DNA from: Alphaproteobacteria bacterium
GTDB lineage: Bacteria; Desulfobacterota; Binatia; UBA12015
DNA length: 44,868 nucleotides
Direction: 5' to 3'
NCBI GenBank assembly: GCA_017853315.1
Contig: JAFMJW010000006.1
Span: forward strand, 1 to 44,868
Shown here: positions 17,855 to 40,005 of the stretch, in pieces
Layout: the number at the start of each line of letters is the position of its first letter
Numbering within the stretch: position 1 is the stretch's first letter
The notes under the pieces: generated by a model
What the model was told of the DNA's origin: nothing
The model's database searches: none
Seen by the model: the letters and a program-made list of their open reading frames with translations, nothing else
Translations under genes and position numbers: made by a program

Positions 17855-17862
17855 CACCTTTT
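17829..17862 (+). terminator. Rho-independent terminator of tRNA-Asn
   Basis: A perfect 12-bp stem (GCGGGGTCGCG and its complement plus one T-A pair) closes a GAAA tetraloop and is followed by CCTTTT. It lies five bases after the tRNA. The same hairpin occurs at the far end of the island with a longer T tract. Confidence 0.9.
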
Positions 17863-17867
17863 AACAG

Positions 17868-17906
17868 CGGCCTCGGAGAGCGATCTCCGGGGCCGTTGTC
17901 TTTTCT
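17868..17906 (+). terminator. Second hairpin terminator behind tRNA-Asn
   Basis: A 12-bp stem (CGGCCTCGGAGA with TCTCCGGGGCCG, one G-T wobble) closes a GCGA loop at 17880-17883 and is followed by TTGTCTTTTCT. It directly follows the first terminator. It lies on the island side of the repeat and has no counterpart at the right end. Confidence 0.7.
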
Positions 17907-18203
17907 CCCCTGTTTCCCCGAGGGTTTGCGCGTGGGCGAGCGTCGCGCGCGCCGGGATGGCGTTCGCAAAGAGAGCGACGCGCGCGTGAAGACGAGCGCG
18001 TCGAGCGCGCGCGGGACGGCGTTCGCGCTCTCATCTCGGTCCCGTGGGGAGAGAGAAGCCGAGACGCGGTTAACAGCCGACCCTCGGTTTCCGGGACCGT
18101 GACCGGGCGATCAACCGTCCCGCGCGAGGTGGGACTGTTGATCAACGGGGCGCTGTCCCGCGCGAGCGCGGAACCGGCGCCCACGTTGGCGCGTGGCGCG
18201 CTG
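17907..18203. other. Non-coding left end of the island
   Basis: About 300 bases without a convincing gene. The stretch holds many CGCG-rich segments, an inverted copy of the tRNA-Asn anticodon stem (18067-18079) and a GTTGATCAAC palindrome at 18137-18146 with a further GATCAAC half-site at 18109-18115. These may be remnants of recombinase or regulator binding sites. Open frames here look like shadows with no recognisable protein. Confidence 0.5.
18067..18079 (-). repeat. Inverted copy of the tRNA-Asn anticodon stem-loop core
   Basis: CGGTTAACAGCCG at this position is the exact reverse complement of CGGCTGTTAACCG at 17777-17789 in the tRNA-Asn anticodon arm. The match is 13 bases. It may be a trace of the element's own attachment region or chance; see findings. 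Confidence 0.5.
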
Positions 18204-24374: not shown

Positions 24375-24583
24375 GCCTTCGGCCCCTCGTCATCGTGCGC
24401 CTCTTCGAGGTCCTCATCGTCCGGCAGGTCCTCACCAAGCACGGCGTCGTGCTTCTTATCGTCCGGGGTGACGATGGCGGTGAGCGCTTGGGCGAGCGCG
24501 TCTTCGCGGCCCGGCTCGAACAGCTCGAAGCGCAGGTTCGCCGTCTCGCGATCGAACACGCCGCCCTGGTGAGGTACTCGAGG
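24371..24583 (-). pseudogene. 3' remnant of an unknown gene upstream of the mcrC-like gene
   Basis: This frame ends in ATGA overlap with the mcrC-like start and encodes an acidic tail: VFDRETANLRFELFEPG, then TAIVTPDDKKHDAVLG and a run of Asp/Glu ending DDEGPKA. Codon use fits the strand and the spacing fits the operon. Upstream of about 24583 the frame becomes an anti-sense-like, Arg/Pro-rich sequence, whereas a neighbouring frame reads as the start of a transporter. I interpret it as the C-terminal end of a lost first operon gene. The family is not recognisable from the fragment, and McrB cannot be confirmed. Confidence 0.5.
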
Positions 24584-24681
24584 CGCAGCGCGCGGTTCAC
24601 CGCCTCCGGCCGGAGGTCGGGTTCTGATGCGCCGCAGGCGGTGTGGCATCCGCAGGACGTGGCTGGGGCGATGGTCTCCAT
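24568..24681 (-). pseudogene. 5' fragment of a probable cation transporter
   Basis: An ATG at 24681-24679 starts METIAPATSCGCHTACGASE and continues to PEAVNRALRLEYLT, then loses homology. The Cys-rich start followed by an RALRLEYLT-type segment is how I recall cation transporters of heavy-metal islands beginning, just before their first membrane span. The transporter body is missing. The fragment is divergent from the blaI-type gene and would have used the same regulatory region. It abuts the remnant of the defence operon, so the junction lies near 24570-24585. Assignment is from motif memory only. Confidence 0.45.
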
Positions 24682-24712
24682 GGTGCTCCGATTCGGTCGC
24701 GAAGAGTCGCAC

Positions 24713-24741
24713 TCGACATCGGCCAGAATTGCAACTACTAT
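24713..24741 (+). promoter_or_regulatory. Sigma-70-type promoter of the metal-efflux operon
   Basis: TCGACA at 24713-24718 and TACTAT at 24736-24741 are separated by 17 bases, matching -35 and -10 elements. The -10 lies inside the operator palindrome, so repressor binding would block polymerase. The repressor gene starts 35 bases further on. Confidence 0.6.
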
Positions 24742-24753
24742 AGCGGCTAGTAG
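24735..24753 (+). promoter_or_regulatory. Operator palindrome 1 (BlaI/CopY type)
   Basis: CTACTAT-AGCGG-CTAGTAG forms an inverted repeat with 7-base arms (one mismatch) and a 5-base centre. The core TACTA..TAGTA resembles known BlaI/MecI operators. The same site recurs at 26255. It overlaps the -10 of the promoter of the repressor gene. Confidence 0.65.
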
Positions 24754-24776
24754 ATGAGAAGCCACAGGAGCCAGCC

Positions 24777-25193
24777 GTGACGTTCCGCCTTCGCTCAGGG
24801 AAGAAGGGCCTCGAACTCCGTCTTCACGACCTCGAGGCGACCATCATGGACGTGGTGTGGGGCAAGCAGCTCTCCTCCTTCGCCGTCGGCGACGTGCTCG
24901 CCATCCTCGAGAAGCAGCGGGACATCGCCTACACCACGGTGATGACGACCGTGACGCGGCTGTACGAGAAGGGGATCCTCGAGCGCGAGCGCGACGGCAA
25001 GCGCTACCTGTACTCGCCCAAGCTCAGTCGGGAGGAGTTCCTGCAGTCGACGGCGCGCGAGGTGTTGGACGAGGCGGTCGGTGGCCATCAAGCGATGGCC
25101 ATGCTGGCGGAGAAGGTCTCTGAGGCGTCGGCCGGCGAGCTCGATGACCTCGAGGCGCTCATCCAGAAGCGACGAGAGGAACTCGACGCGTGA
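24777..25193 (+). CDS. BlaI/MecI/CopY-family transcriptional repressor
   Basis: The 138-residue product has the winged-helix domain of this family: LHDLEATIMDVVWGKQLSSF, then a recognition-helix region IAYTTVMTTVTRLYEKGILERERDGKRYLYSP. The C-terminal helices (about 85-138) form the dimerisation and protease-sensitive region. In this family, derepression follows cleavage by an M56 membrane protease, or metal binding in CopY. The next gene encodes an M56-type protease and overlaps it by four bases (GTGA). The GTG start is preceded by CAGGAG. It probably binds the two palindromes at 24735 and 26255. Confidence 0.9.
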   Translation: MTFRLRSGKKGLELRLHDLEATIMDVVWGKQLSSFAVGDVLAILEKQRDIAYTTVMTTVTRLYEKGILERERDGKRYLYSPKLSREEFLQSTAREVLDEAVGGHQAMAMLAEKVSEASAGELDDLEALIQKRREELDA

Positions 25194-26212
25194 TCGAGGC
25201 GACCTTCCCGCTGCTCGGCACGGCGTTCGTCGTGCTCATCGTGCTCCCCGCGTTCGCGTTGCTCGCGAAGGCGGGTCTCGTGACGCTCGAGCGCGACGAG
25301 GCGGGAGGGCCGCTTCATGGCCTCAACCTTCGCTACGTGCTGCTGACCGGGTCGAGCGCGCTCCCCATCGCGTGGCTTCTCTCCGCGGGCCTGCATCAGG
25401 CCGAGACCGGAAAGTCGGCGCTCGCGTGCCTGTTCGATCACGACACCGCTGAGCTGTGCTTCGAGCCTGGCTTCTTCGCCCTCGTGCTGGCGGCTGCCAT
25501 CTTTGCCTCGTCGATCGGCGTCGTGCGGAAGCATCGAGGCGCACGAGCCTCTTCGACTGACGCCGCACGCACGCTCGTTCGACGTGTCGCGCGCATCATC
25601 GCGAGCGATCCCGCGCTCGCCGGCCTTCACGATCGCGTCGTCGCCACCGACGACGTGGGCTTCGCCCTCGGCACCCACGGGTTGCTCAAGCCGCGCGTGT
25701 TCATCGGCACCGATTTCGCCGCTCGGCTCTCCGACGAGATGCTCGCGAGCGCGCTCGGGCACGAGGCCGAGCACCTCCGCGCCCTCGACCCACTGCGCTA
25801 TCTCATCCTTCAGCTCGCGCTCGCTGTGAATCCGTTCGGGCGGTTCTTGCTCGAGCCGCACGCCGCTCGCTGGCGGGCCGCTCGCGAGGCGCACTGTGAC
25901 CGCGAGGCCGTTATTCACGGCGCGGCGCCGCTCCCGCTCGCGGACGCCATCGTGAGAGCGGCGCGGCCCGGAGCTCGCGAGGCCGTCGCGCTCGGCGCGC
26001 GTGACACCGCAGTCCTCCGGTTGCGCATCGGGATGCTGCTCGCCTTCTCCGAACGCACTCCCGCTCGCTGCTGTCACCAGGGTCCGTCGGCCTTCCCGGT
26101 GGCGTTCGTCCTCCTGCTCATCGCGCTGCTTCTGCCGCATCAAACCGGCACCGCCGCGCTCGATGTGCTCCACACGGGCGCAGAGCACGCGCTCACCTAC
26201 TTCTGGCGCTGA
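25190..26212 (+). CDS. BlaR1-type M56 membrane metalloprotease
   Basis: The 340-residue product has several N-terminal membrane helices (about residues 5-30, 45-70 and 92-112) and a zinc protease domain. HEAEH (191-195) is the HExxH site, and Glu233 in REAHCDREA is the probable third ligand. A C-terminal hydrophobic helix (VAFVLLLIALLL) follows. Unlike BlaR1 and MecR1 there is no penicillin-binding sensor domain, so the signal is probably sensed differently, perhaps as metal. It would cleave the neighbouring repressor and release the efflux genes. GTG start with four-base overlap. Confidence 0.8.
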   Translation: MIEATFPLLGTAFVVLIVLPAFALLAKAGLVTLERDEAGGPLHGLNLRYVLLTGSSALPIAWLLSAGLHQAETGKSALACLFDHDTAELCFEPGFFALVLAAAIFASSIGVVRKHRGARASSTDAARTLVRRVARIIASDPALAGLHDRVVATDDVGFALGTHGLLKPRVFIGTDFAARLSDEMLASALGHEAEHLRALDPLRYLILQLALAVNPFGRFLLEPHAARWRAAREAHCDREAVIHGAAPLPLADAIVRAARPGAREAVALGARDTAVLRLRIGMLLAFSERTPARCCHQGPSAFPVAFVLLLIALLLPHQTGTAALDVLHTGAEHALTYFWR

Positions 26213-26220
26213 GGAACTCG

Positions 26221-27660
26221 ATGGCCCGATCGCACCGTACACGCTTGCCTTCAACTACTATGGCGCATAGTAACAGCGCGGTCGCGGCGGCGTTCTCGCT
26301 CCTCGTCGGCGCATGCGCGCACGCCGCTCCGACGAGGAGCGCCGTCGACGCTCGCGAGGCACCGCCGCCTCATCTGCGCGGACCTGCCGTCGGCGGCGCT
26401 GACCTCGGACATGCCGAGCACACGGATCCGGTCCCGGACCCTGCGGCCGGAGGCGAAGTTTCGTTGGGCGGCATTCTTGCCTTCGCGGATCAGCATTCGC
26501 CGGTGCTCACGGTCGCGCGGAGCACGCGCTCTCGGGCCGAAGCCGCGCGCGTCGCTGCGTCCATCCTCCTCCCTACAAACCCGGAGGTCACCGCTGCCGT
26601 AGGACCTCGATTCGGCATCCAGGGAACGGGCGTCGACGTCGATATCATTCTGATGCAGCAAATCCAGATCGCCGGTGAACGAGGCGCGAGGCTCGACGCG
26701 GCCGACCGCCTACGGGAGCTCACGGACGCCGAGATCGAGCAGATCCGCTGGGCCGTCCACACCGACGTCCACGCGGCGTTTCACCGCGCACTCGTGGAGC
26801 AAGAGCGAGCTCGGCTCGCTGGGCGCGTCGTCACGTTTCAAGAGGACGTGCTTCGAGTGGTCGAGGGGCAGATCTCCGCCGGAGAGACCGCGCCGCTCAC
26901 GCTTCGCCTCGCGCAGGCAGAGGTCGCCCAGGCGCGCCAGACGCAGGTCGCCGCGGAGCAGGCGTTCCTCGCGTCGCGCATTCGCCTCGCGCAGCTCTCC
27001 GGCTGGCCCGTGAGCTCGCCGCCCACGCCCGCGGGCACCGTGGACCAGCCGCGCGATCCGCCCTTGCTCGAGCAACTCCTCGCCGTCGCGCGCGAGCGCC
27101 TCCCGAGCTTGCGCGCCGCGGTGGCGCGGATCCGTGAGGCGGAGGCGCGCGTCACGGTGGCGAACCGTGAGGCGTGGCCACGCCCTTCGATCGGCGTGCA
27201 GTACCGCCGTGAGGGGAACCCGACGGCTGAAGGCGCCTACGACATCGTGATGGGCGTCCTGTCGATCCCCATCCCGACCTTTCAGACGAACCAAGGCGAC
27301 CGTGCCCGCGCTCGGGCGGACGTGACCGTCGCCGAAGCCGAGCTCGAGGCCGCCCAGAGATTGCTCGAGGGGCAGATCGCCGAGGCCCGCAGCGAGGTCG
27401 TCGCGGCGGCGCAGCGCACGAGGACCTACGGCACGGAGATCCTGCCGCGCTTCGAGGAGAACCTGACGATGCTGCGCCGCGCGTTCGAGCTCGGCGAGAT
27501 CGATCTGCTCGCGCTCTCCACGGGCCGCGAGCGTTTCCTGCGCATCCAGAGCGACGCCCTCGGCGCGCAGCTCGACTACTTCGTCGCGCTCGCCGCGCTC
27601 GAGCGCATCGTCGGTGTCGACCTTTGGCGCGATGACCACCACGAGGAGAGCACCCCATGA
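26221..27660 (+). CDS. czcC: Outer-membrane efflux protein (TolC/CzcC-like lipoprotein)
   Basis: The 479-residue product is an outer-membrane factor of a tripartite RND pump. A basic start is followed by a lipoprotein-type signal (AFSLLVGAC). The mature part has the repeated helical OMF pattern: SRAEAARVAASILLPTNPEV, QISAGETAPLTLRLAQAEVAQ, and a second repeat with TFQTNQGDRARARADVTVAE and FELGEIDLLALSTGRERFL. The ATG at 26221 follows GAGGA and gives a normal n-region; an alternative ATG at 26260 lies inside an operator palindrome. Its stop overlaps the start of the adaptor gene (ATGA). The symbol indicates the class, not proven orthology. Confidence 0.87.
   Translation: MARSHRTRLPSTTMAHSNSAVAAAFSLLVGACAHAAPTRSAVDAREAPPPHLRGPAVGGADLGHAEHTDPVPDPAAGGEVSLGGILAFADQHSPVLTVARSTRSRAEAARVAASILLPTNPEVTAAVGPRFGIQGTGVDVDIILMQQIQIAGERGARLDAADRLRELTDAEIEQIRWAVHTDVHAAFHRALVEQERARLAGRVVTFQEDVLRVVEGQISAGETAPLTLRLAQAEVAQARQTQVAAEQAFLASRIRLAQLSGWPVSSPPTPAGTVDQPRDPPLLEQLLAVARERLPSLRAAVARIREAEARVTVANREAWPRPSIGVQYRREGNPTAEGAYDIVMGVLSIPIPTFQTNQGDRARARADVTVAEAELEAAQRLLEGQIAEARSEVVAAAQRTRTYGTEILPRFEENLTMLRRAFELGEIDLLALSTGRERFLRIQSDALGAQLDYFVALAALERIVGVDLWRDDHHEESTP
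26255..26273 (+). promoter_or_regulatory. Operator palindrome 2 (BlaI/CopY type)
   Basis: CTACTAT-GGCGC-ATAGTAA is an inverted repeat of 7-base arms with one mismatch. It shares the 10-mer CAACTACTAT with the site at 24732. It lies within the first codons of the outer-membrane gene, so it may act as an internal roadblock or mark a second promoter for the pump genes. Confidence 0.55.
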
Positions 27661-28844
27661 GCCGCCGCATCCTGGTTTCTATCCTATTCATCGCGCTCGC
27701 CGGGCTGACGGCCGCCTGCAACAAGGGCGGCGGCGAAGCGGAGCAGGACGAGCACGGTCACGAAGAGGGCGCTCACGGGGAAGAAGAGGGCCACCGCGAG
27801 GCAGGGCACGAGAACGAGGTCCGCCTGTCCCCCGAAGCCCAGGAGCGCGCCGGAATCCGTATGGGCGTGGTCGAGCGGCGGGCTCTCACCGGAGGCGTCG
27901 CCATCCCTGCGGAGGTGCAGTTCGAACCGAGCAGCACTGCTCACGTCGGGCCGCTCGTGCCCGGACGCATCACCAAGGTGACAGTCGCGCTCGGCGATCG
28001 AGTGCGACGCGGACAATTGCTCGGGGTCGTGGCATCGAGCGACGTGTCCGAGGCGCGCGCTCGCCTCGATCAAGCCCGCGCGAGGCTCTCCGCGGCCGAA
28101 GCGACCCTGACGCGCCAGCAGCAGCTCTCGACCGAAGGCATTGGCGCGCAACGGTCGCTGATCGACGCGGAGGCCCAGGTCGGCGAGCTCCGCGCCGAGG
28201 TCGCCGGACTTCGCCGCCAGCTCTCCGTGTTCGGCTCCGGCAACGCGGGCGAGCTGGCCCTGACCGCGCCGATCGACGGCGTCGTCGTGGCCCTGCACGC
28301 GACCCTCGGTGAAACCGCCAAACCGGACGAGCCGGCGTTCATCGTCACGGACCCCACCAAGGTCTGGATCCGCGGCAACGTGCCCGAGCTCGAGATCAGC
28401 CGCGTGCAGATGGGCTCCGGCGCGATCGTCCGGCTGCACGCGTTCCCCGACCTCGCCATGACCGGAACCATCACCTACGTCGCGCCCGCGCTCGAAGAGA
28501 GGACCCGTTCCCTGCCTGTGCGCGTCACCATAGAGAACCCGGACGCGCGACTGCGGAGCGGGCTATTCGGCAGCATCGAGTTGCTCGGCGGCCGCGCGGA
28601 CGAGCGCGTGCTGGTCGTCCCGGCAGAAGCCGTGGCGTCGCTCGACGGTCAGACGGTCGTCTTCGTCCCCGCCGACGAGCCCGACACGTTTCGGCCCCAG
28701 CCGGTGGCGCTCGGACGGCACGCTGGCGGCTTCTTCGAGGTTCGCTCCGGGTTCGAAGAAGGGGCGCGCCTGGCGACGAGCGGCGCGTTCACGCTGAAGA
28801 GCGCCCTGCGCAGCAGCGAGCTCTCCGAAGGCCACTCTCACTGA
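27657..28844 (+). CDS. czcB: RND efflux periplasmic adaptor (CzcB-like lipoprotein)
   Basis: The 395-residue product is a membrane-fusion protein linking inner-membrane pump and outer-membrane channel. A lipoprotein signal ends LTAAC. A long His/Glu-rich stretch follows (HGHEEGAHGEEEGH...), and the C-terminus ends EGHSH; both suit metal capture. The lipoyl-like halves are PGRITKVTVALGDRVRRGQLLG and LTAPIDGVVVALHATLGE, separated by an alpha-hairpin (ARARLDQARARLSAAEATL...). The start overlaps the upstream stop by four bases. The His-rich ends argue for a metal pump rather than a drug pump. Confidence 0.9.
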   Translation: MSRRILVSILFIALAGLTAACNKGGGEAEQDEHGHEEGAHGEEEGHREAGHENEVRLSPEAQERAGIRMGVVERRALTGGVAIPAEVQFEPSSTAHVGPLVPGRITKVTVALGDRVRRGQLLGVVASSDVSEARARLDQARARLSAAEATLTRQQQLSTEGIGAQRSLIDAEAQVGELRAEVAGLRRQLSVFGSGNAGELALTAPIDGVVVALHATLGETAKPDEPAFIVTDPTKVWIRGNVPELEISRVQMGSGAIVRLHAFPDLAMTGTITYVAPALEERTRSLPVRVTIENPDARLRSGLFGSIELLGGRADERVLVVPAEAVASLDGQTVVFVPADEPDTFRPQPVALGRHAGGFFEVRSGFEEGARLATSGAFTLKSALRSSELSEGHSH

Positions 28845-28856
28845 GGACCGATCGCC

Positions 28857-31800
28857 ATGAAGAAGCTCCTCGAAATCTGCCTCAAGTGGCGCCTCCTCGT
28901 GTTCGCCTTCGCGGTGATCGTCGCGGCCCTCGGGGCGCGCAGCGCGCAGCAGCTCCCGATCGACGCCGTGCCCGACGTCACCAACATCCAGGTCCAGATC
29001 CTCACGAACGCTCCGGCGCTCGGCCCGGTAGATGTGGAGCGGACGATCACCTTTCCGGTCGAGGCCTCGATGAGCGGTCTGCCGGGTGTCGAGCAGATCC
29101 GCAGCGTCTCTCGCTTCGGGCTGTCGGCCGTGACGGTCGTGTTCGAGGAAGGCACCGACCTGCTCCGCGCGCGACAGCTCATCTCGGAGCGCCTCACGCA
29201 AGCCCGCGAGCGCCTCCCTCCAGGCACCTCGCCCGAGATGGGGCCTCTCAGCACCGGCCTCGGGGAGATCTTCCAGTTCGAGGTGCGGGCTGAGAACGCG
29301 TGCGTCCAGGGCCAGCCGGACACGGACCAGTGCTATTCCCCGATGGAGCTACGCTCTATCCTCGACTGGTTCCTGGCGTACGAGCTGCGCTCGGTCCCAG
29401 GTGTCGTGGAGGTCAACTCGTTCGGCGGCGAGCTCAAGACCTACGAGGTCGAGGTGCTCCCCGACCGCCTGCGCGCCCTCGACGTATCCTTGAACGAGCT
29501 CTTCGACGCGCTTGAACGGAACAACGCGACTGCGGGCGGCGGATACCTCGTTCGCTCGGGAGAGCAGCTCCTCGTGCGCGGCGAGGGGCGCATCCAGACC
29601 CTCGACGAGATCGGGGACGTCCTCATCGAGACCCGGGAGGACGGCGTGCCGGTGCGCGTACGGGACGTCGGCCGCGTTCACCTCGCGCCCATGATTCGAC
29701 AAGGAGCGGTCACGAGAGACGCGCGCGGCGAGGTCGTGACCGGCATCGTGATGATGCTCGTCGGCGCCAACGGCCGAGAGGTCGTAGAGAACGTGAAGGC
29801 GAAGATCGCCCAGATCGCTCCGTCGCTCCCGCCCGGCGTTCGCATCGACGTGTTCTACGACCGCGCCGACCTGGTGAACCGAACGATCCGCACCGTGGCG
29901 AAGAACCTCGCAGAGGGAGCGCTCTTCGTCATCGCCGTCCTCTTCCTGCTGCTCGGGAGCATCCGCGGTGGCCTCATCGTGGCGGCGGCCATCCCCTTCG
30001 CGATGCTCGTCGCGTTCACCGGGATGAAGGCGCTCGGGCTCAGCGGGAATCTCATGAGCTTGGGAGCCATCGACTTCGGCATCGTCGTCGATGGTTCCAT
30101 CATCGTCGTCGAGAACGCGGTCGTGCACCTGGCGGCGGCAGCGCGCGGGCTGAAGCGCCCGATGACCTATGGGGAGGCCGCCAACGTCGTGATGGGCTCC
30201 ACGCTGGACGTGCGGAAGGCAGCGCTCTTCGGCGAGGCCATCATCGTTATCGTCTACATCCCGATCCTCACGCTCGCCGGCATCGAGGGGAAGATGTTCA
30301 AGCCGATGGCCATCACGGTGCTCTTCGCGCTGCTCGGGGCCTTCATCGCGTCGCTCACGTTCGTGCCGGTGCTGGTCGCGACCTTCCTGCGGCAGCACAC
30401 CGAGGAGAAGGAGCCGTTCCTCGTTCGACTGTTGCACCGCGTGTATCCCCGACTGCTCGCGCCCCTGATGCGGGCGCCCAAGAAGGTCATCGCCGTCTGC
30501 TTGGTCCTCCTGGTGGCAGCGGGGCTGATCGCGTCCCGGATGGGCGCGGAGTTCGTGCCGCGGCTCGACGAGGGCGCCATCGCGATTCAGATCCTCCGCC
30601 TGCCGAGCGTCTCGCTCGAGGAGAGCGTTCAGGGCGCGACGCGCTTCGAGCGCGTCCTGCGCGAGTTCCCGGAGGTGGTCACGGTCATCTCGAAGACGGG
30701 CCGCGCCGAGATCGCCACGGATCCGATGGGCGTGGAGCTCTCGGACGCCATCGTCATCCTGAAACCCTCCGAGGAGTGGACGACCGCGCACACCCGAGAG
30801 GAGCTCGTGCAGCGCATGTCTGCGCGCCTGACCGAGGCGCTTCCGGGGCTCGGCTTCTCGTTCTCGCAGCCGATCGAGCTTCGAATGGCCGAGCTCATCA
30901 GCGGCACGCGTTCGGACGTCGCCATCACGATCTACGGCGATGACCTCGCCACGCTCGAGCGCCTGAGCCAGGAGGTCCAGGGCGTCGCGCGGGGAGTCCC
31001 CGGTGCCTCCGATGTCCGAGGCGAACAGCTCGCCGGCCTTCCAACGCTGGAGGCGACGGTGGACCGCGCGGCGGCCGCTCGCTACGGCGTCTCGGTGCGG
31101 GACGCGCTCGACGCGATCGAAGCCTTGGGAGGCCGGGCCGTGGGCGAGGTCTACGAAGGAGAGCGGCGCTTCCGCCTTCAAGTGCGCGTCCCAGCCGCGC
31201 TGCGCGACGACATCGACGAGGTGCGAACCCTGCCTGTCAGCGGCGCGAGCGGTCTGCTGGTGCCGCTCGGACAGATCGCCAGCATTCAGATCGTGGACTC
31301 TCCGGCGAGCGTGAGCCGCGAAAGCGTGCGCCGCCGAACGAACGTCGAGGTGAACGTGCGCGGGCGCGATCTCGCGTCCTTCGTCAACGAGGCGCAGGCG
31401 CGGGTTCAGGAGCAGGTGGAACTGCCGCCCGGCTACGTCGTCCATTGGGGCGGGCAGTTCGAGAACCTCAGGGCCGCCTCGGAGCGCCTGGCGATCGCCG
31501 TGCCCCTCGCGCTCGGGCTCATCTTCATCCTCTTGTACATGGCGTTCGGTCAGCTCAGGCCGACGTTGCTCATCTACCTGAATGTGCCGTTCGCGGCCGT
31601 GGGTGGCGTGTTCCTGCTCGCGCTGCGCGGCATGCCGTTCTCGATCAGCGCGGCCATCGGGTTCATCGCGCTCTTCGGCATCGCGGTCCTCAACGGCGTC
31701 GTGCTCCTCACGACGGTCAAGAAGCTGCGCGAGCAGGGCAGGTCGCCGCTCGAGGCTGCCAGAGAGGGAGCCGAGGCGCGGCTGCGCGCCGTGGTGATGA

Positions 31801-32051
31801 CGGCGACGGTTGCCGCCCTCGGGTTCCTGCCGATGGCGTTGTCGACGAGCGCGGGCGCAGAGGTGCAGCGGCCGCTCGCCACCGTCGTCATCGGCGGCCT
31901 CGTGAGCGCGACCTTCCTGACCCTGTTCGTGCTCCCCACCGTCTACGCGTTCATCTACCGCAAGGATGAACCGCCGCCCTCGGGAGACGCCGGGGAGGAG
32001 ACCGCACGAGATGCGGGTGGCGGTGCAGCGCAAGCCGAGGGAGCGGTGTGA
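28857..32051 (+). CDS. czcA: Heavy-metal RND efflux pump (CzcA-like)
   Basis: The 1,064-residue product is the inner-membrane RND transporter of the heavy-metal group. The proton-relay and metal-path residues of CzcA-type pumps are kept in GAIDFGIVVDGSIIVVEN: Asp406, Asp412 and Glu419, with the same spacing as CzcA Asp402, Asp408 and Glu415. This distinguishes it from CusA-type Cu/Ag pumps, which lack this DFG..D pattern. RND signatures QLPIDAVPDVTNIQVQI, GAEFVPRLDEGAIAIQ, VNVRGRDLASFV and the C-terminal membrane block are present. Substrates are probably divalent cations (Zn, Co, Cd, Ni). GAGGA precedes the ATG. It overlaps the next gene by four bases. Confidence 0.94.
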   Translation: MKKLLEICLKWRLLVFAFAVIVAALGARSAQQLPIDAVPDVTNIQVQILTNAPALGPVDVERTITFPVEASMSGLPGVEQIRSVSRFGLSAVTVVFEEGTDLLRARQLISERLTQARERLPPGTSPEMGPLSTGLGEIFQFEVRAENACVQGQPDTDQCYSPMELRSILDWFLAYELRSVPGVVEVNSFGGELKTYEVEVLPDRLRALDVSLNELFDALERNNATAGGGYLVRSGEQLLVRGEGRIQTLDEIGDVLIETREDGVPVRVRDVGRVHLAPMIRQGAVTRDARGEVVTGIVMMLVGANGREVVENVKAKIAQIAPSLPPGVRIDVFYDRADLVNRTIRTVAKNLAEGALFVIAVLFLLLGSIRGGLIVAAAIPFAMLVAFTGMKALGLSGNLMSLGAIDFGIVVDGSIIVVENAVVHLAAAARGLKRPMTYGEAANVVMGSTLDVRKAALFGEAIIVIVYIPILTLAGIEGKMFKPMAITVLFALLGAFIASLTFVPVLVATFLRQHTEEKEPFLVRLLHRVYPRLLAPLMRAPKKVIAVCLVLLVAAGLIASRMGAEFVPRLDEGAIAIQILRLPSVSLEESVQGATRFERVLREFPEVVTVISKTGRAEIATDPMGVELSDAIVILKPSEEWTTAHTREELVQRMSARLTEALPGLGFSFSQPIELRMAELISGTRSDVAITIYGDDLATLERLSQEVQGVARGVPGASDVRGEQLAGLPTLEATVDRAAAARYGVSVRDALDAIEALGGRAVGEVYEGERRFRLQVRVPAALRDDIDEVRTLPVSGASGLLVPLGQIASIQIVDSPASVSRESVRRRTNVEVNVRGRDLASFVNEAQARVQEQVELPPGYVVHWGGQFENLRAASERLAIAVPLALGLIFILLYMAFGQLRPTLLIYLNVPFAAVGGVFLLALRGMPFSISAAIGFIALFGIAVLNGVVLLTTVKKLREQGRSPLEAAREGAEARLRAVVMTATVAALGFLPMALSTSAGAEVQRPLATVVIGGLVSATFLTLFVLPTVYAFIYRKDEPPPSGDAGEETARDAGGGAAQAEGAV

Positions 32052-34492
32052 AGCACAAGCTCGATATGGACCTTGTGCTGCCGAGCGAGGCGGCAGAGTG
32101 CGACGCCTGCGTCGAGCGTCTCGTGGCCACGCTCGGCGCGACCCGAGGCATCACGCACGTGCACGTGGACCGTGCCGAGCCGGGCCGGCCGAAGCTGTGC
32201 CTCCACTACGAGCCCACGTCCGTGCGACTCGAGGAGGTGGAGGCGCTCGTGGAGCGCACTGGCGCCGAGCTGAGGGCGCGCTACGAGCACCTGTCCGCGC
32301 CGGCAGTGGGCTTGCGCCACGAGCGCCAGGCGCGCCTCGCCGAGGGTGTATTCGCACGACAACCCGGCGTGCTGTATGCCTCGGTCGCGTTCGGGACGCG
32401 CCGCTTGTACGTCGAGTTCGATCCCGCAAAGACGAGCCGGGAGGCGCTCCTCGCGGTCGCGTCCAAGGCAGGGATCGTCTCCTACGCGGAGCCCGCATCT
32501 CCCGCGGCGGCCGTCGCAAAACACGAGGAGCAAGAACATGAGCACGGAGGTCCATTCGGTGAACGCTCCGAGCTCGTCTTCAGCGTCGCGTGCGGTGTGC
32601 TCACTGCCGTCGGGTGGGGCCTCGAGAAGGCAGAAGTCGGCGCGACCGTCGCGACCGCCCTGTTCTCCCTCGCGTACGTCCTCGGCGCGTGGTTCACGGT
32701 GAAGGAGGTCGCCGTCGCGCTGCGAGCGCGCAGGTTTGAGATCGATTTCCTCATGCTGCTCGCGGCCATGGGAGCGGCCGTTCTCGGCGAGTGGTTCGAG
32801 GGGGCGCTCCTGCTGTTCCTATTCACGCTCGGCCACGCCCTGGAAGGCTATGCGATGCGGCGGGCCCGCAACGCCATCGAGGCGCTCGCGAAGCTCGTCC
32901 CAGAGACAGCCCTGCGGCTCGACGACGACGATCGCGACGAGGAGGTGGCGGTCGCCGAGCTCGTCGGAGGTGACCGCATCTTGGTCAAGCCGAACACGCG
33001 CATCCCTGCGGACGGCTTCGTGAACGCCGGGACGAGCAGCGTGAACCAGGCGCCGATCACTGGAGAGAGCGTTCCCGTCGACAAGCGGCCGGTCCCGGAC
33101 CCGGAGGCAGCGCTCGCGGTGCCCGACGAGCTCGACGCCGAGCATCGCGTGTTCGCGGGCACCATCAACGGAGCCGCAGCCCTGACCGTCATCGTCACCA
33201 AGACCGCCGGCGAGAGCACGCTCGCGCGCGTCGTGAAGCTGGTGGCCGAGGCCGAGACCCAGAAATCCCCGACACAGCAGTTCACGGATCGCTTCGAGCG
33301 CGTGTTCGTCCCGATCATCCTGGTCGTCGTCGTGGGCCTGCTCTTCGCGTGGATGGTGCTCGACGAGCCGTTCGCGCGGAGCCTCTACCGCGCGATGGCG
33401 GTGCTGGTCGCCGCGAGCCCCTGCGCGCTCGCCATCGCGACCCCGAGCGCGGTCCTTTCGGGCGTGGCCCGTGCCGCGCGAGCCGGCGTGCTCTTTAAGG
33501 GTGGTGCCCACCTCGAGTCGCTCGGCTTCGTTCGAGCCATCGCGTTCGACAAGACGGGCACCCTCACGGAAGGCAAGCCGCGCCTCACGGACGTCGCAGC
33601 GCTCGACAGCGCGTCGGAGGACGAGCTCCTCGCGATCGCGACGGCGGTGGAGAAGCAGTCGGACCACCCGCTCGCAGGTGCAATAGTTGACGGCGTGCGA
33701 GCGCGTCGCCCCGACCTCACGGTGCCGGAGGCCACGGAGGTCGAGGCGATCATCGGCTATGGTGTCCGCGCCAAGGTCGGTGAAAGCGTGGTGAGCATCG
33801 GCAAACCCGGCCTGTTCACGCGAGAGGGCTCGCTTCCGCCGAGCGTCGCCGATGCGGTCAGCAAGCTCCAAGGAGACGGGCGCACCGTCATGGTCGTGCA
33901 CTCGGGCGAGCGCTTTCTCGGTGTTCTCGGCGTGATGGACACACCTCGGGAGAGCGCACGCACGGTCGTTGCCGAACTCCACGCGCTCGGCGTTGAACAG
34001 ACGATCATGATCACGGGCGATCATCAGCTCGTGGCCGATGCCATCGCGAAGCAGGTCGGGATCCGGCTCGCGCGCGGAGACCTCCTCCCGGAGCAGAAGG
34101 TCAGCGCGATCGCCGAGCTCGCGAGATCGAAGAGTCGGGTCGCGATGGTAGGCGACGGCGTGAACGATGCGCCCGCGATGGCCAACGCCACGGTGGGCAT
34201 CGCTATGGGCGCGGGCGGCTCGGATGTCGCGCTCGAGACCGCCGACGTCGCGCTCATGGCCGACGACTTGCGCGCGTTGCCGTTCGCGGTCGGGCTCAGC
34301 CGCGCGGCGCGCAGCATCATCCGTCAGAACCTCTGGGCCAGCCTCGGCATGGTGGCGTTCCTCATCCCCGCGACCATCTTAGGCCTCGCCAAGATCGGCG
34401 TCGCCGTCGCGCTGCACGAGGGCTCGACCTTGCTCGTCGTCGCGAACGCGCTGAGGCTCCTGGCCTACGAACATCGACGGGGAACGACATGA
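32048..34492 (+). CDS. P1B-4-type heavy-metal ATPase with unusual N-terminal domains
   Basis: The 814-residue product is a metal-exporting P-type ATPase. Core motifs: actuator ITGES, membrane SPC (457-459, SPCALAIATP), phosphorylation DKTGT (Asp501), HP in SDHPLAG, GDGVND, and HEGST (790-794) in the last helices. SPC with HEGST marks the P1B-4 group (CoaT/CtpD-like; Co, Ni, Fe or Zn). Typical members have little N-terminal extension. This one has about 170 residues with two HMA-like folds (CDAC near residue 18; a second lacks the Cys pair) and a His-rich linker (KHEEQEHEHGG). GTG start overlaps czcA. Confidence 0.92.
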   Translation: MKHKLDMDLVLPSEAAECDACVERLVATLGATRGITHVHVDRAEPGRPKLCLHYEPTSVRLEEVEALVERTGAELRARYEHLSAPAVGLRHERQARLAEGVFARQPGVLYASVAFGTRRLYVEFDPAKTSREALLAVASKAGIVSYAEPASPAAAVAKHEEQEHEHGGPFGERSELVFSVACGVLTAVGWGLEKAEVGATVATALFSLAYVLGAWFTVKEVAVALRARRFEIDFLMLLAAMGAAVLGEWFEGALLLFLFTLGHALEGYAMRRARNAIEALAKLVPETALRLDDDDRDEEVAVAELVGGDRILVKPNTRIPADGFVNAGTSSVNQAPITGESVPVDKRPVPDPEAALAVPDELDAEHRVFAGTINGAAALTVIVTKTAGESTLARVVKLVAEAETQKSPTQQFTDRFERVFVPIILVVVVGLLFAWMVLDEPFARSLYRAMAVLVAASPCALAIATPSAVLSGVARAARAGVLFKGGAHLESLGFVRAIAFDKTGTLTEGKPRLTDVAALDSASEDELLAIATAVEKQSDHPLAGAIVDGVRARRPDLTVPEATEVEAIIGYGVRAKVGESVVSIGKPGLFTREGSLPPSVADAVSKLQGDGRTVMVVHSGERFLGVLGVMDTPRESARTVVAELHALGVEQTIMITGDHQLVADAIAKQVGIRLARGDLLPEQKVSAIAELARSKSRVAMVGDGVNDAPAMANATVGIAMGAGGSDVALETADVALMADDLRALPFAVGLSRAARSIIRQNLWASLGMVAFLIPATILGLAKIGVAVALHEGSTLLVVANALRLLAYEHRRGTT

Positions 34493-35115
34493 CCGACGGC
34501 GACCGCAGCTACTGGGACAAGCACGCCAAGAACTACGAGCGCTCGATGGCGCTCCTGGGTCGGCCTATCCCACGCATGGTGGAACTGGCCGGCGAAGCGG
34601 TACGCGGTGCGGAGCGCGTGCTCGAGGTGGCGGCCGGCACCGGGCTCGTCACGCCCGCGCTCGCTGCTGGCGCAGGGGAGGTCATCGCCACCGACTACTC
34701 GGCGGCGATGGTCGCCGCGCTGGAGCGGCGCGTGCGAGATGCCCAGGTGGCGAACGTGCGATGCGAGCAGGCCGACCTCTACGCCCTCCGGTTCGACGAC
34801 GCGTCGTTCGACGCGGTCGTCGCAGCGAACGTCCTCCACCTCGTTCCGGACTTGCCGAGCGCCTTGGCGGCACTTCGACGCGTGCTGAAGCCGGGCGGCC
34901 TGCTCGTCGTTCCGACCTTCTGCCACGACGAGACTGCGCTCTCGTGGGTCGTCTCGCGGGCGCTGGCCGTGACCGGCTTCCCGGGGCACCGGCGCTTCAC
35001 GGCGAAGTCGCTCCGGCAGGCGGTCGAAGAGGCGGGTGTCCGCGTGACGCGAGCGGAGGTGCTGCCGGGCGTCATCCCGATCGGCTACGTCGCAGGGAAG
35101 TTCGGGCCCGGGTGA
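34489..35115 (+). CDS. Class I SAM-dependent methyltransferase
   Basis: The 208-residue product has the methyltransferase-11 Rossmann pattern: motif I VLEVAAGTGLVTPAL, the acidic residue in ATDYSAAMV, LRFDDASFDAVVAANVLHLV, and LRRVLKPGGLLVVPTF. The substrate is not evident. It is the last gene of the metal-efflux operon and overlaps the ATPase stop by four bases (ATGA). Possible roles are detoxification by methylation of a metalloid or modification of a lipid, but neither is shown by sequence. Confidence 0.85.
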   Translation: MTDGDRSYWDKHAKNYERSMALLGRPIPRMVELAGEAVRGAERVLEVAAGTGLVTPALAAGAGEVIATDYSAAMVAALERRVRDAQVANVRCEQADLYALRFDDASFDAVVAANVLHLVPDLPSALAALRRVLKPGGLLVVPTFCHDETALSWVVSRALAVTGFPGHRRFTAKSLRQAVEEAGVRVTRAEVLPGVIPIGYVAGKFGPG

Positions 35116-35387
35116 CGGCGCGCCGTTTCGCCCGTGTGGCCAGTCTCCCGGCCGAGGGCCTCTGGGCCACGCGGCGCCTCGAACGCGCGCCAGCGGCCAA
35201 CGTGGGCGCGCCTGCCGCGCTTGGCCCCCGCGTTCGCAGCGGGACGGCGCGAATCAGCGAGAGCGTCCCGGCTCGCCAGGCGTAACCACCTGGATTCGCA
35301 GGCGTTCGCATTTTCGGGACAATGCGAGCGGAGAGAACCTGTCCCGCCGAGAGGCTTGCGAATGGGTTGGTGAACGGCTACGAATCC
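35116..35387. other. Non-coding right end of the island with nested inverted repeats
   Basis: No convincing gene. From 35294 to 35363 three interleaved 7-bp inverted repeats occur: ATTCGCA/TGCGAAT (35294-35300 and 35357-35363), TCGCATT/AATGCGA (35306-35312 and 35321-35327), CGGGACA/TGTCCCG (35315-35321 and 35340-35346). The region directly precedes the right repeat copy. The 35380s contain a tRNA-like TACGAATCCGG. It may be a recombinase binding region or a remnant of a tRNA end. Confidence 0.5.
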
Positions 35388-35424
35388 GGAGCCATCCTTG
35401 CGGGGTCGCGGAAACGCGACCCCG
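35388..35424 (+). repeat. Right copy of the island-flanking direct repeat (probable attR)
   Basis: Matches 17818-17854 at 35 of 37 positions, including 26 consecutive bases covering the whole terminator hairpin. The bases before it are a weak match to the tRNA-Asn T arm. Confidence 0.75.
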
Positions 35425-35433
35425 TTTCTTTTT
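35400..35433 (+). terminator. Hairpin terminator at the right island end
   Basis: The duplicate hairpin (CGGGGTCGCG-GAAA-CGCGACCCCG) is followed by TTTCTTTTT, a longer T tract than in the left copy. It could end transcription of the metal-efflux operon. It also fits the idea that this side carries the original flank of tRNA-Asn. Confidence 0.75.
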
Positions 35434-35501
35434 CCCGGCCGCCGAAACGACCCCGGGGGGCCGCCCGACCGGGAGGGCCGAAGCCGAGGCTCGGCCTCGC
35501 G

Positions 35502-36404
35502 TCAGGGCATCCGGGGGTTCGAGACCGCCTCGCGCACGACCTGCCTCGTTCGCGCGATCAATTCGATTCCCCCGGGCGATCCGTGCCCCGGCACCACGGT
35601 CGTCGGCCCGGGAAACCGGGCTTCGACCGCTGCGAGCGAGGCCTCCCACGTCGAGAGCGACGCGTCCGCGCGGTTGCCGACGTCGGTCGCGTCGCCCGAC
35701 CGGATCATGCACGAACCGAACAGGATGCGCGGCCCGGGCAGCCAGACGACCACGTTGTCGGGCGAGTGGGCGGCGCCGGGAAAGAAGACTTCCGCCCGCA
35801 CGTCGTCGACGGCCAGCAAGGCCTCCGAGGCGAAGACTTCGTCCGGCGGCGGCCAACCGTCGGCGCTCGCGCGTCGCGCCGTCCCCTCGAACTCGTGGAC
35901 CCGGATCCCCCGGCGCCGGGCCTCCCGGATTCCACCGATCCGGTCGTCGTGGGAGTGGGTCACGACCAGGTCGGTGGCGCGACGGCCGGTTTCCCGCTCG
36001 ACCCAGTCGAGGAGCGCCGCCGTCGCCTCGTCGCCCCACGCGGTATCGACCAGCAGGGCGTGGCGGGAGCCGAGCACGACGAGCCCGTTCGAGCCGATCG
36101 GGCCCAGGCCCGGCAGCGCCCGCGTGGACTCGTGGAGAAAGACCCCGGGCGCGATCGGGCGAACGGTCAGGTCGGCGCGCAGGCGGACGGCACCGTGAAA
36201 TTTCTCGGCCGCGAGCCCGTTGCCCGCCGCGACGACGTCCGGCGAGTTGGTCGGAGGAGCGCCTCCCGGGGCAGGTCCGCCGCGGAGCCTCGACGGAGCA
36301 GCCGTGCACGCGGCCTGGAGCAGCCCGAGCGCCGCGAGCGCCACGAGGACGCAACCTCGCCGACCCACGCCCCGCAGAAACCTCGCCCGACCCGGCTCCG
36401 CCAT
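35502..36404 (-). CDS. Putative subclass B1 metallo-beta-lactamase (VIM-like motifs)
   Basis: The 300-residue product has a signal peptide with a Cys after LLQAA (weak lipobox) and a metallo-beta-lactamase domain. All B1 zinc ligands are present: His150, His152 and Asp154 in THSHDDRIGG; His213 in FFPGAAHSPDN; Cys232 in ILFGSCMI; His274 in VVPGHGSPGG. DNVVVWLP, GNRADASL (substrate-contact Asn) and a basic residue after the Cys (Arg) follow the order of VIM and NDM enzymes. It would hydrolyse beta-lactams in the periplasm. The gene lies just outside the right repeat of the island. A GTG at 36422 is an alternative start. Beta-lactamase activity is untested; the motif set is stronger than for generic MBL-fold hydrolases. 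Confidence 0.85.
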   Translation of the reverse strand: MAEPGRARFLRGVGRRGCVLVALAALGLLQAACTAAPSRLRGGPAPGGAPPTNSPDVVAAGNGLAAEKFHGAVRLRADLTVRPIAPGVFLHESTRALPGLGPIGSNGLVVLGSRHALLVDTAWGDEATAALLDWVERETGRRATDLVVTHSHDDRIGGIREARRRGIRVHEFEGTARRASADGWPPPDEVFASEALLAVDDVRAEVFFPGAAHSPDNVVVWLPGPRILFGSCMIRSGDATDVGNRADASLSTWEASLAAVEARFPGPTTVVPGHGSPGGIELIARTRQVVREAVSNPRMP

Positions 36405-36585
36405 GCACCGGCGGGATAGCACGGACGACGTCCGAGGCTCTCGCCCAGCTCCCGGGCCGGGCCGGAGAAAATCGGGGGACCCCGTAGGATTTGCTCTTGA
36501 AGTCCCCTAGTCACCCGTGGGATTAGGTCGGCCGACCGAACGGGCAGGAACCGGTCCAACCTCGCGCAAGGATGGGGGAAACGTG

Positions 36586-39500
36586 ATGCGAATCCAGAAG
36601 GGGCTCTTCTTCGTCGTGGCCGTGGCCTGCATGGCCATGGCCTGGTCGCCGCGCGAGGCTTCGGCCGACGCGTACTCTTGCATCGCCAAGGTCACCGACG
36701 GCGCCCAGAAGGTGCTGCTCGCCGAGACCAAGGCGATCGCCGGCTGCGCGGCCTCCTACGCGAAGGGGACGACCTCGCAGGTGCTGCCCTGCGCGGCCCC
36801 GTTCGCGAACGCTTCGGTGAAGAGCGCGCAGGACAAACTGATCGCCGACACGGCGTCGTCCTGCGGCACCTCGCTGCCGGCCTTCGGCCTCACGTCGCTC
36901 GCGACCCCGCCGACGCTCGCGTTCCAGCACAGCGTGGACCTCTACAAGGACATCTTCGGCCAGGACGTGAACGCGCTCACGCGCAAGGACACGAACGGGC
37001 TCAAGTGCCAGGACACGATCCGCAAGGCGGTGTCGAGCTGCCAGGACACCCGCGTGAAGGGTCTCGAGGACTGCCTGAAGTCCGCCTGGAAGGCCGGCAC
37101 GCTGAACGGCGTGAACGCGATCGCGGCCTGCTTCGGCGGCGTCGGCGGCAACGAGCAGCCCGACGACAAACAGAAGATCGACAAGGCCTGCCGCACCGCC
37201 ATCCGCGACAAGGTCATCCCGGTCTGCACCTCGCTCGGCATCTCGGTCCCCGTGGCCATGCCGGGCTGCGGCGCGACCGACCCGGTCAGCGCCGGCTACT
37301 GCGTGAAGAATCGCTCGCTCTGCCGCATCTGCACGCTCGCCAACGCGATGTACGGCACGGCCAAGGACTGTGACCTCGCCGACGACGGCAACGACTCGAA
37401 CGGCTCCTGCCCCGAGCCCACCGCCTGTGGCGACGCCGTGACCGACGGCACCGAGCAGTGCGACGACGCCAACACCGCCAACGGCGACGGCTGCTCCTCG
37501 GCCTGCGTGGTCGAGACCGGCTGGACCTGCAGCGGGACCTCCTGCTCCCCGATCCACGGCGACGGCCTGATCAAGGGCAACGAGCAGTGCGACGACGGCA
37601 ACACGACGAACGGCGACGGCTGCTCGTCGAGCGGCACGATCGAGAACGGCTTCACCTGCACCGGCCAGCCGAGTGTCTGCAAGGACGCCTGCGGCAGCGG
37701 CAAGATCCGCTTCACCGAGCAGTGCGACGACGGCAACAAGGTGAGCGGCGACGGCTGCTCCGCCACCTGCCAGATCGAGACCAACGCCCTGTGCGCGGGC
37801 GAGCCGAGCGCCTGCCGCTTCAAGCAGTGCGGCGAGGGCATCATCGACGCGCCCGAGGCCTGCGACGACGGCAACAAGAACAACGGCGACGGCTGCTCCT
37901 CGACGTGCACGGTCGAGGCGACCGCGACCTGCACCGGCCAGCCGAGCGTGTGCCGCGCGGTGGGCTGCGGCGACAGCCTCATCGACGGCGTCGAGACCTG
38001 CGACGACGGGAACCTCGTGGGCGGCGACGGCTGCTCCGTCACCTGCCAGAAGGAGAGCGGCTGGACCTGCGGCGGCGTGCCGTCGGCCTGCGCCACCATC
38101 CCTGCCGACGGCCTGGTCCGCGGCGGCGAGCAGTGCGACGACGGCAACACCCGCAACGACGACGGGTGCAGCAGCACCTTCGGGATCGAGACGGGCTGGT
38201 ACTGCGAGCCCAACCGCGAGCCCAGCCGTTGCGAGCTGCAGTACTCGGTGGTCATCGACTCGCCGGCGAACGGCCTCTTCACGACCAACAGCTCGACGAC
38301 CGTGACCGGGCACGTGACGAACCTCACCGCGGAGCGGTCGAACCTCGACATCAACGGCGTGATCGTTCCGGTCGCCGCGAACGGCACCTTCACCACCACC
38401 GTCGCGCTCGACGCGGCCAAGATCTTCAACCCGATCCGCGTCCAGTTGAACGACAAGTGGCGCACGGGCTGGAAGGCCTACGACCGCACGGTCCAGATCC
38501 GCGGCAACTCGATCGCCGACGCGGACTACTCGTCGAACACGATCGCGCTGCGGGTGAACGACTCGGGCCTCGACAAGATCGAACCCGCGATCGTGAACCT
38601 GCTGGGCAGCGGCCTGGACCTCGCGGCGCTCCTGCCCGTGGGCACGAAGGTCATCGACAACGTCTGCGTGCAGGATTCGTTCGCGGGGTGCCTCGCGCGC
38701 GCGTCGGCCTACGTCACGAACCCGCCGCCGTCGTTCAACAGTTTCGCGGTGAACCTCGACGCGCAGAGCGGGTATGCGATCGCCTACCTCACCATCTACG
38801 GCGTGAATGCGAACGTCCGCATCGACAGCGTGGTCGACTGCGGCCGTATCGGCTTCACCTCGACCGACCTGCACGTCGACGGAGACTACTCGCTCGCTCC
38901 GGACGTGACGACCAACAACGAGTACCTCGACGTGAACCTGATCGGCTCGCCCCGGGTCGCGCTGAATGGCTACAGCCAGAACAACGACGGCAGCGCCGGC
39001 TGCGGCATCGTCCAGTTCTTCGCCGGCAACCTGCGCGACACCGTCCAGGGAGCGCTGGTCAACTTCCTCAAGGACCCCGACGGCAGCGGCCCCGCGGACG
39101 CGCCGGTCGCCGACGCGATCGAGACCGCGCTCTCGGGTCTCACGATCGCGACCACGCTCGGCGATGCGCTCGGCGTCTCCTTCAAGGCGCCGTTCACGGC
39201 CGTGATCGTCGACAGCGCCGGCTTCACCTTCAAGTCGAACGCGCGGATCGTGTCGTCGAACGGGACGGGCACGGGCCAGTGCGTCTACCCGCCGGGTGCC
39301 CCCAAGTTCTCGCGGACGCTCTCGTTCACCGAGGCCTACCCGACCTTCTCGGGGAACACCCCGGGCGGCACGCCCTTCAACCTGGGCTTCGGGCTGTCCG
39401 CCACGGCCTTCAACCAGCTGCTCAAGACCCAGGTCGAGTGCGGCCTGCTGAACCTGACCTTCTCGGCTTTCGACTTCGGCAACGGAGCCGAGCCGCTCAC

Positions 39501-40005
39501 GGCGGCCACCATCGGGGCGCTCTTCCCCGAGTTCCAGAAGCTCCCCGGCACGACGCCGGTCCGCCTCGAGGTGGTCCCGACGATCGCGCCGATCGTCACG
39601 GGCGACGTCGGCCTGAACGGCGAGACGACGGAGCTCCGCATCTCCAACATCATCGTGCGCATCGTGCAGAACGACGGCAGCGAGAAGATCCTCCTCGAGG
39701 GTGCCTTCGACGCCCGTCTCGGTGCGAGCTTCGGGTTCGCCAACGGGGCCCTCGCGATCACGCTCGGCGGCGTCGACGCCTCGAACGTGACCGTGAACCT
39801 CCTGAAGAACGCAATCGGTGTCGACCAGGTGGCCTTCGAGACCCAGCAGTTGCCCGGGCTGGTCGCCTCCCTGGTCCCTCTGCTCACGTCGGACGCCCTG
39901 CCCGCCATCCCGCTGCCGGCCTTCCTCGGCTTCAACCTGGGCGGCGTCGGCGTGGCGAAGCTCGACAAGTTCCTGACCGTCTACACCAACCTCTCGGCTC
40001 CCTGA
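36586..40005 (+). CDS. Large secreted Cys-rich DUF4215-repeat protein
   Basis: The 1,139-residue product has a signal peptide (FFVVAVACMAMAWSPREASA) and an N-terminal region with many Cys residues of the kind seen in delta-type secreted proteins. Six DUF4215 (myxococcus cysteine-rich) repeats follow, about residues 280-550, each with the pattern C.....G.E.CDDGN...GDGCS; repeats two and six have lost some cysteines. A probable Ig-like segment (SPANGLFTTNSSTTVTGHV) is near 565-640, and the last 450 residues are a beta-rich region of unknown fold. No membrane anchor or sorting signal is seen at the end (YTNLSAP). The ATG at 36586 follows GGGGGAA. It is probably an extracellular or surface protein; function is unknown. 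Confidence 0.85.
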   Translation: MRIQKGLFFVVAVACMAMAWSPREASADAYSCIAKVTDGAQKVLLAETKAIAGCAASYAKGTTSQVLPCAAPFANASVKSAQDKLIADTASSCGTSLPAFGLTSLATPPTLAFQHSVDLYKDIFGQDVNALTRKDTNGLKCQDTIRKAVSSCQDTRVKGLEDCLKSAWKAGTLNGVNAIAACFGGVGGNEQPDDKQKIDKACRTAIRDKVIPVCTSLGISVPVAMPGCGATDPVSAGYCVKNRSLCRICTLANAMYGTAKDCDLADDGNDSNGSCPEPTACGDAVTDGTEQCDDANTANGDGCSSACVVETGWTCSGTSCSPIHGDGLIKGNEQCDDGNTTNGDGCSSSGTIENGFTCTGQPSVCKDACGSGKIRFTEQCDDGNKVSGDGCSATCQIETNALCAGEPSACRFKQCGEGIIDAPEACDDGNKNNGDGCSSTCTVEATATCTGQPSVCRAVGCGDSLIDGVETCDDGNLVGGDGCSVTCQKESGWTCGGVPSACATIPADGLVRGGEQCDDGNTRNDDGCSSTFGIETGWYCEPNREPSRCELQYSVVIDSPANGLFTTNSSTTVTGHVTNLTAERSNLDINGVIVPVAANGTFTTTVALDAAKIFNPIRVQLNDKWRTGWKAYDRTVQIRGNSIADADYSSNTIALRVNDSGLDKIEPAIVNLLGSGLDLAALLPVGTKVIDNVCVQDSFAGCLARASAYVTNPPPSFNSFAVNLDAQSGYAIAYLTIYGVNANVRIDSVVDCGRIGFTSTDLHVDGDYSLAPDVTTNNEYLDVNLIGSPRVALNGYSQNNDGSAGCGIVQFFAGNLRDTVQGALVNFLKDPDGSGPADAPVADAIETALSGLTIATTLGDALGVSFKAPFTAVIVDSAGFTFKSNARIVSSNGTGTGQCVYPPGAPKFSRTLSFTEAYPTFSGNTPGGTPFNLGFGLSATAFNQLLKTQVECGLLNLTFSAFDFGNGAEPLTAATIGALFPEFQKLPGTTPVRLEVVPTIAPIVTGDVGLNGETTELRISNIIVRIVQNDGSEKILLEGAFDARLGASFGFANGALAITLGGVDASNVTVNLLKNAIGVDQVAFETQQLPGLVASLVPLLTSDALPAIPLPAFLGFNLGGVGVAKLDKFLTVYTNLSAP

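Follow-up and report, generated by a model that had tools for sequence, protein, structure and literature searches.

The described enzymes closest in kind to the one reported here are MYX-1, STA-1, and ANA-1, chromosomal metallo-beta-lactamases of environmental bacteria that belong to group B1-1 of the Alpha- and Deltaproteobacteria (PMC5637372). When 21 predicted B1 genes were tested in that work, 18 hydrolyzed imipenem, these three among them, and 3 were inactive in E. coli. In NDM-1, Lys224 helps to bind the substrate (PMC10740994); NDM and some Chryseobacterium B1 enzymes are known to be anchored to the membrane (PMC12326980). By the 2017 convention, identity below 70% defines a separate B1 family.

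The gene analyzed here lies in a 44,868-nucleotide stretch of DNA, referred to below as the window. Its product is likewise a chromosomal, environmental B1 enzyme of delta-type bacteria, but it carries Arg224 and FGSC where MYX-1, STA-1, and ANA-1 have Lys224 and FGGC. MYX is also its best named NCBIfam subfamily, at 180.9 bits, followed by PYX (174), COR (167), and VIM (154.9), all far below their own cut-offs. Since the blaMYX cut-off is 520 bits, and the M. xanthus protein is about 43% identical to it, it was not assigned to the MYX family.

Identification of the gene and its product

A sequence-only reading of the window had put forward the open reading frame at 35502-36404 as a candidate B1 metallo-beta-lactamase. 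The family model, tree, predicted fold, and zinc ligands bear this out, and the frame encodes a real member of the subclass, one of the zinc-dependent beta-lactamases, which break down penicillins and carbapenems. It runs on the minus strand with no internal stop over the 300 residues of its translation; an alternative in-frame GTG start at 36422 would give 306 residues. The protein scored 223.2 bits (E 3e-66) against NF033088, the NCBIfam subclass B1 equivalog model, whose curated cut-off is 200 bits, and the gene was the sole B1 match in the host genome. The metallo-beta-lactamase domain begins at about residue 72. The 60 best PDB chains by sequence were metallo-beta-lactamases, with no glyoxalase II or other hydrolase name among those 60. 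The features of the gene are as follows, with ligands in standard BBL numbering.

35502..36404, minus strand: B1 metallo-beta-lactamase gene, 300 aa, ATG at 36404 (NF033088 score and fold match)
36306..36404, minus strand: N-terminal signal region, ending ...VLVALAALGLLQAAC, Cys33; probable lipoprotein signal
35940..35957, minus strand: zinc ligands H116, H118, and D120, with R121; residues 150-155, HSHDDR within THSHDDRIGG
35766..35768, minus strand: zinc ligand H196; residue 213, GAAHSPDN
35709..35711, minus strand: zinc ligand C221; residue 232, FGSC, then R224 at residue 235
35583..35585, minus strand: zinc ligand H263; residue 274, PGHGSPGG

Active site residues, predicted fold, and signal region

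The ligands of both zinc sites are present: H116, H118, and H196 of Zn1 are residues 150, 152, and 213, and D120, C221, and H263 of Zn2 are residues 154, 232, and 274. When 87 B1-type proteins were aligned, H116, H118, D120, H196, and C221 were invariant (87/87), and position 263 was His in 86 of them. The motifs that the sequence-only reading had listed as complete and in order (H-x-H-x-D-R, GAAHS.DN, FGSC, and PGHG.PGG) were all found in the translation, but its two comparisons with VIM were wrong in detail. GNRADASL is indeed present in the protein, but GNxADA is widespread across B1 enzymes and not specific to VIM. Similarly, Arg does replace at position 224 the Lys of most B1 enzymes, but not as in VIM, for the aligned residue is Tyr in VIM-2 and Lys in NDM-1 and IMP-1. 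Arg224 occurred in 21 of the 87 B1 rows, mostly gammaproteobacterial and myxococcal, and Ser220 was a minority state (4/87). Because Lys224 serves substrate binding in NDM-1, Arg at this position is a plausible conservative replacement.

An AlphaFold model was built from 38 homologues, with plasmid-derived records left out, and had a pLDDT of about 96-98 over residues 71-290. The predicted fold matches solved B1 enzymes at TM-scores of 0.96-0.97 by target length, with Foldseek values of 0.97 (rmsd 1.1) for CcrA (1a7t) and 0.96 (rmsd 1.2) for BcII (1bvt). The top 50 Foldseek matches were all metallo-beta-lactamases (VIM, BcII, CcrA, GIM, and a Pontibacter enzyme).

The N-terminus is hydrophobic and ends in GLLQAAC, and the protein is probably exported and anchored to the membrane by lipidated Cys33. 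In five relatives (L116, L049, L060, L056, and L055) a canonical lipobox stands at the corresponding position of the alignment, reading LVAC and LAGC in the nearest ones. In LQAAC, Gln at -3 departs from the canonical [LVI][ASTVI][GAS]C, and because of this non-canonical sequence we place lipidation no higher than probable.

Phylogenetic placement

Of 172 encoding stretches returned by the scan of species-representative genomes, 80 were retained. Within the collections searched, the protein was closest to L116, from the uncultured Myxococcaceae MAG SRR9109402_bin.20 (59% identity), and L049, from the Myxococcota MAG KLAP97 (56%), followed by proteins of delta-type MAGs (47-49%) and Myxococcus enzymes (about 43%). 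Like L116 and L049, the protein has the full set of ligands, an SHDDR motif, Arg224 within CM[IV]R, and a probable lipoprotein-type N-terminus; they differ from it in host phylum and gene neighbors, and identities below 70% set it apart as a separate family by the 2017 convention. No conserved gene neighbors were found. Since identity was below 70% to any B1 enzyme found in the collections searched, the protein would represent a new B1 family.

The sequence-only reading had proposed a phylogeny with B1 enzymes as a check and had named placement with glyoxalase II or other hydrolases as grounds for rejection; the protein fell among the B1 enzymes instead, in one clade with L116 and L049 (support 100/98). 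The tree is read here as unrooted within B1, since most outgroup rows dropped out for lack of a match to the query, and splits deep between B1 groups had weak support. The suggestion of a divergent, ancestor-type lineage is not supported by this placement at a tip, as sister to two Myxococcota enzymes, with active relatives of the MYX-1, STA-1, and ANA-1 kind already known. On these sequences the new family would be of known myxobacterial type, not an ancestral lineage.

The mature domain is about 40% identical to that of VIM enzymes, which also share R121 and GNxADA with the protein and gave the top Foldseek E-values. VIM membership was nevertheless ruled out by score (154.9 against a blaVIM cut-off of 500 bits), by Tyr224 in VIM-2, and by the tree, in which a larger clade (98/97) holding VIM-2 and the B1 enzyme of G003 excludes it. 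VIM-2 in L045 is plasmid-borne between aminoglycoside-resistance genes, unlike the gene in the window. NDM-1 is also a B1 enzyme and has a lipoprotein signal (LSGC), as the protein probably does, but it is only about 33% identical and belongs to a different subclade, and the gene studied here is without mobile context.

G003 is a genome of the host's own family, and its B1 enzyme belongs to another subclade; a single clade of the two enzymes was rejected (AU p 0.026), an indication that one bacterial family gained B1 genes twice, from different subclades. In the RpoB tree the host grouped tightly with its congener and G003 inside its own class (100/99). The genome encoding L116 grouped with Myxococcus and Archangiaceae (100/99), apart from the host, and its RpoB was the binning check made among the nearest relatives. 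By RpoB, then, the host class is placed outside Myxococcota. Because the gene and host histories disagree, horizontal transfer is the best explanation, and its direction would be from relatives of myxobacteria, the most likely source.

The sequence-only reading was correct that the host group is not a well-known source of B1 enzymes: 2 of 148 genomes of the host class reached the B1 cut-off, as did 3 of the 395 genomes sampled in the phylum. Among 13 other genomes of the family, only G003 has a B1 gene above the cut-off, and it lies at another genomic place.

Several further placements were observed. The neighbors of VIM-2 in the tree, set on short branches, were chromosomal-type enzymes from Parahaliea, Bowmanella, Rubrivirga, and a Bacteroidota MAG (L068, L105, L091, L092, and L094), a lead on VIM origin. 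L043 and L044 (genomes G394 and G452, of another family in the host's phylum) encode B1 enzymes above the cut-off with an NHWHKD motif resembling CcrA, and their genes adjoin MurJ-like and ribonucleotide-reductase-like genes recognized by eye. The metallo-beta-lactamase of L057, a record titled Comamonas sp. KCTC 72670, was nested among Myxococcus enzymes, and the record is possibly mislabeled or contaminated.

Genomic setting of the gene

The region between a tRNA-Asn gene and a native flanking gene contains the following features.

17749..17824, plus strand: tRNA-Asn (GTT), found by ARAGORN; left edge of the insertion; in G001 and G002 the same tRNA adjoins the empty site
17818..17862, plus strand: att-like direct repeat copy 1, comprising the tRNA 3' end and a terminator hairpin
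17828..36461, no strand: stretch of about 18.6 kb without counterpart in G002 and G001, from blastn synteny and junction sequences; includes the metallo-beta-lactamase gene
19199..24374, minus strand: IetS-like subtilase, IetA-like AAA ATPase, and McrC-like gene (defense); PADLOC for IetS and IetA
24777..35115, plus strand: CopY/BlaI-type repressor, M56 peptidase, CusCBA-like efflux (OEP, HlyD, RND), metal P-type ATPase, and methyltransferase
35388..35432, plus strand: second copy of the att-like direct repeat (45 nt, 89% identity), with the stop end of the metallo-beta-lactamase gene 70 bp away
36517..40005, plus strand: gene for a DUF4215-repeat protein in the native flank, pointing away from the metallo-beta-lactamase gene; the protein encoded at the orthologous place in G002 is 92% identical

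The sites in G002 that match window positions 17827 (the tRNA end) and 36462 (upstream of the DUF4215 gene) are L160 3688 and 3560, 127 bp apart, and the same interval is also short in G001. Because these 127 bp compare with about 18.6 kb in the window, the metallo-beta-lactamase gene lies inside a stretch missing from both congeners, and it is absent from their orthologous site. Both flanks are on the same contig and syntenic with G001 and G002 (68-92% DNA identity). The gene occupies the last kilobase of the stretch, outside the inner repeat that bounds the other 17.6 kb. Its description as beside the island calls for amendment: relative to the two congeners the whole insertion contains it, although it stands 70 bp beyond the inner tRNA-end repeat. 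Of the 45-nt repeat only 7 nt come from tRNA-Asn itself, and the assembled genome contains just two copies of the 22-nt hairpin core. GC content was 68.8% between the repeat copies, 74.2% to their left, 70.7% to their right, and 74.5% in the metallo-beta-lactamase segment; GC3 was 0.88 for the gene, 0.81-0.89 for island genes, and 0.93-0.96 for native neighbors.

The island cargo includes adjacent IetS and IetA genes at 19199-23124 (PADLOC E 3e-96 and 2e-91); the McrC-like gene at 23049-24374 had no PADLOC match. The repressor overlaps the M56 peptidase gene (24777-26212), directly upstream of the OEP-HlyD-CusA/CzcA metal-efflux operon, and no penicillin-sensor domain was matched in the peptidase. 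The nearest NCBIfam model for the repressor was CopY (TIGR02698), whose cut-off it did not reach, and a CTACTA...TAGTAG dyad, not seen upstream of the metallo-beta-lactamase gene, lies just before it. From its CopY affinity, the run of the M56 gene into the efflux operon, and the dyad position, the repressor more likely controls metal efflux, and we rejected BlaI/BlaR1-type control of the metallo-beta-lactamase.

Of the marks of an integrative element, a tRNA 3'-end direct repeat is present at both edges, but Pfam found no integrase or transposase in the window ORFs tested. Among 72,556 plasmid records, 2,736 matched the metallo-beta-lactamase, none with at least 60% identity. Phage records gave no match, viral contigs searched with patterns of its clade encoded no relative, and the island DNA had only short plasmid matches, to metal-transporter genes. 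With no close relative in these plasmid, phage, and viral collections, carriage on a mobile element was discounted, and the earlier suggestion that its position could allow mobilization is unproven.

Discussion

We hold with good confidence that the locus carries a functional B1 metallo-beta-lactamase from a myxococcal-type subclade, which reached the host horizontally within an insertion next to tRNA-Asn. From its sequence the protein is most likely a di-zinc beta-lactamase of horizontal origin, probably with a lipid anchor, and by analogy with its relatives beta-lactamase activity is likely. After export it would probably be held at the membrane through lipidated Cys33 and would fold as the B1 alpha-beta/beta-alpha sandwich, with Zn1 bound by H116/H118/H196 and Zn2 by D120/C221/H263. 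A zinc-bound hydroxide would open the beta-lactam ring, and R224, in place of Lys224, would meet the substrate carboxylate; the substrate range is likewise inferred. In the cell the enzyme may protect the cell wall against beta-lactams from neighbors.

More than one history of the locus was considered. As the gene sits beyond the inner direct repeat, it did not necessarily enter together with the remainder of the insertion: either it was in place before the 17.6-kb piece, or the locus grew by accretion of two pieces. If it was already next to tRNA-Asn in the genus ancestor, it would have been lost in the two sequenced congeners and only the 17.6-kb stretch would have been inserted later, between the tRNA and the gene. 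Its place outside the repeat, the high GC of its segment (74.5%), and the small number of congeners, only two, fit this history. Losses would be required in both congeners, however, the one B1 gene above the cut-off in 13 other family genomes (G003) belongs to another subclade and has a different genomic location, and GC3 of the metallo-beta-lactamase is island-like, so that we regard long residence as unlikely. A chimeric or mis-binned contig, with the gene foreign to the host, is very unlikely: the assembly is fragmented (398 contigs, 3.9% contamination), but flanks syntenic with the congeners on the same contig speak against mis-binning, as does the tRNA-end direct repeat in the insertion.

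The assignment of function was weighed in the same manner. With Arg224 and Ser220 different from the majority, and with 3 genes of 21 inactive in E. coli (PMC5637372), a protein with the B1 fold and its ligands might be a poor beta-lactamase that performs another hydrolysis, for example of a lactone or peptidoglycan fragment. We consider this improbable, as the score exceeds the curated B1 cut-off, the protein branches within a set of families whose hydrolysis of imipenem has been measured, and Arg224 in 21 of 87 rows is a common variant. Short motifs alone may mislead, and three long ORFs overlap the gene in high-GC DNA, but the chance of a distant metallo-beta-lactamase-fold hydrolase such as glyoxalase II, or of a fortuitous ORF, is negligible: the family E-value of 3e-66, Cys221, tree, and fold rule out the former, and the overlapping ORFs had no Pfam match. 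A bolder reading, which we find very improbable, would make the locus an accreting resistance-and-defense island at tRNA-Asn in a barely sampled class, where an active lipid-anchored new-family B1 carbapenemase, IetAS phage defense, and metal efflux move as a unit between myxobacteria and the host class.

As a B1 enzyme most likely acquired horizontally, the protein is ordinary in kind and a useful catalog entry. It adds a B1 family, at less than 70% identity to any B1 enzyme found here, and a host class where B1 is rare, and it extends the environmental B1 reservoir known from myxobacteria; clinical risk is not demonstrated by the finding alone.

The junction from tRNA-Asn to the DUF1501 gene varies across the family, with a short spacer in G004 (L164) and G008 (L165), the DUF4215 gene in G001 (L159) and G002 (L160), and the 18.6-kb insertion in the window, and by sequence comparison it looks like an insertion hot spot. 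G003 matches the left end of the insertion (window 17746-18080) with 78% identity across its own tRNA-Asn and the downstream sequence (L162 1124-1447); the contig ends about 1.1 kb beyond the tRNA-Asn match, and a related insertion there is possible. Within the DUF4215 gene, at window 37426-38229, a unit of about 129-138 nt is repeated six times in tandem.
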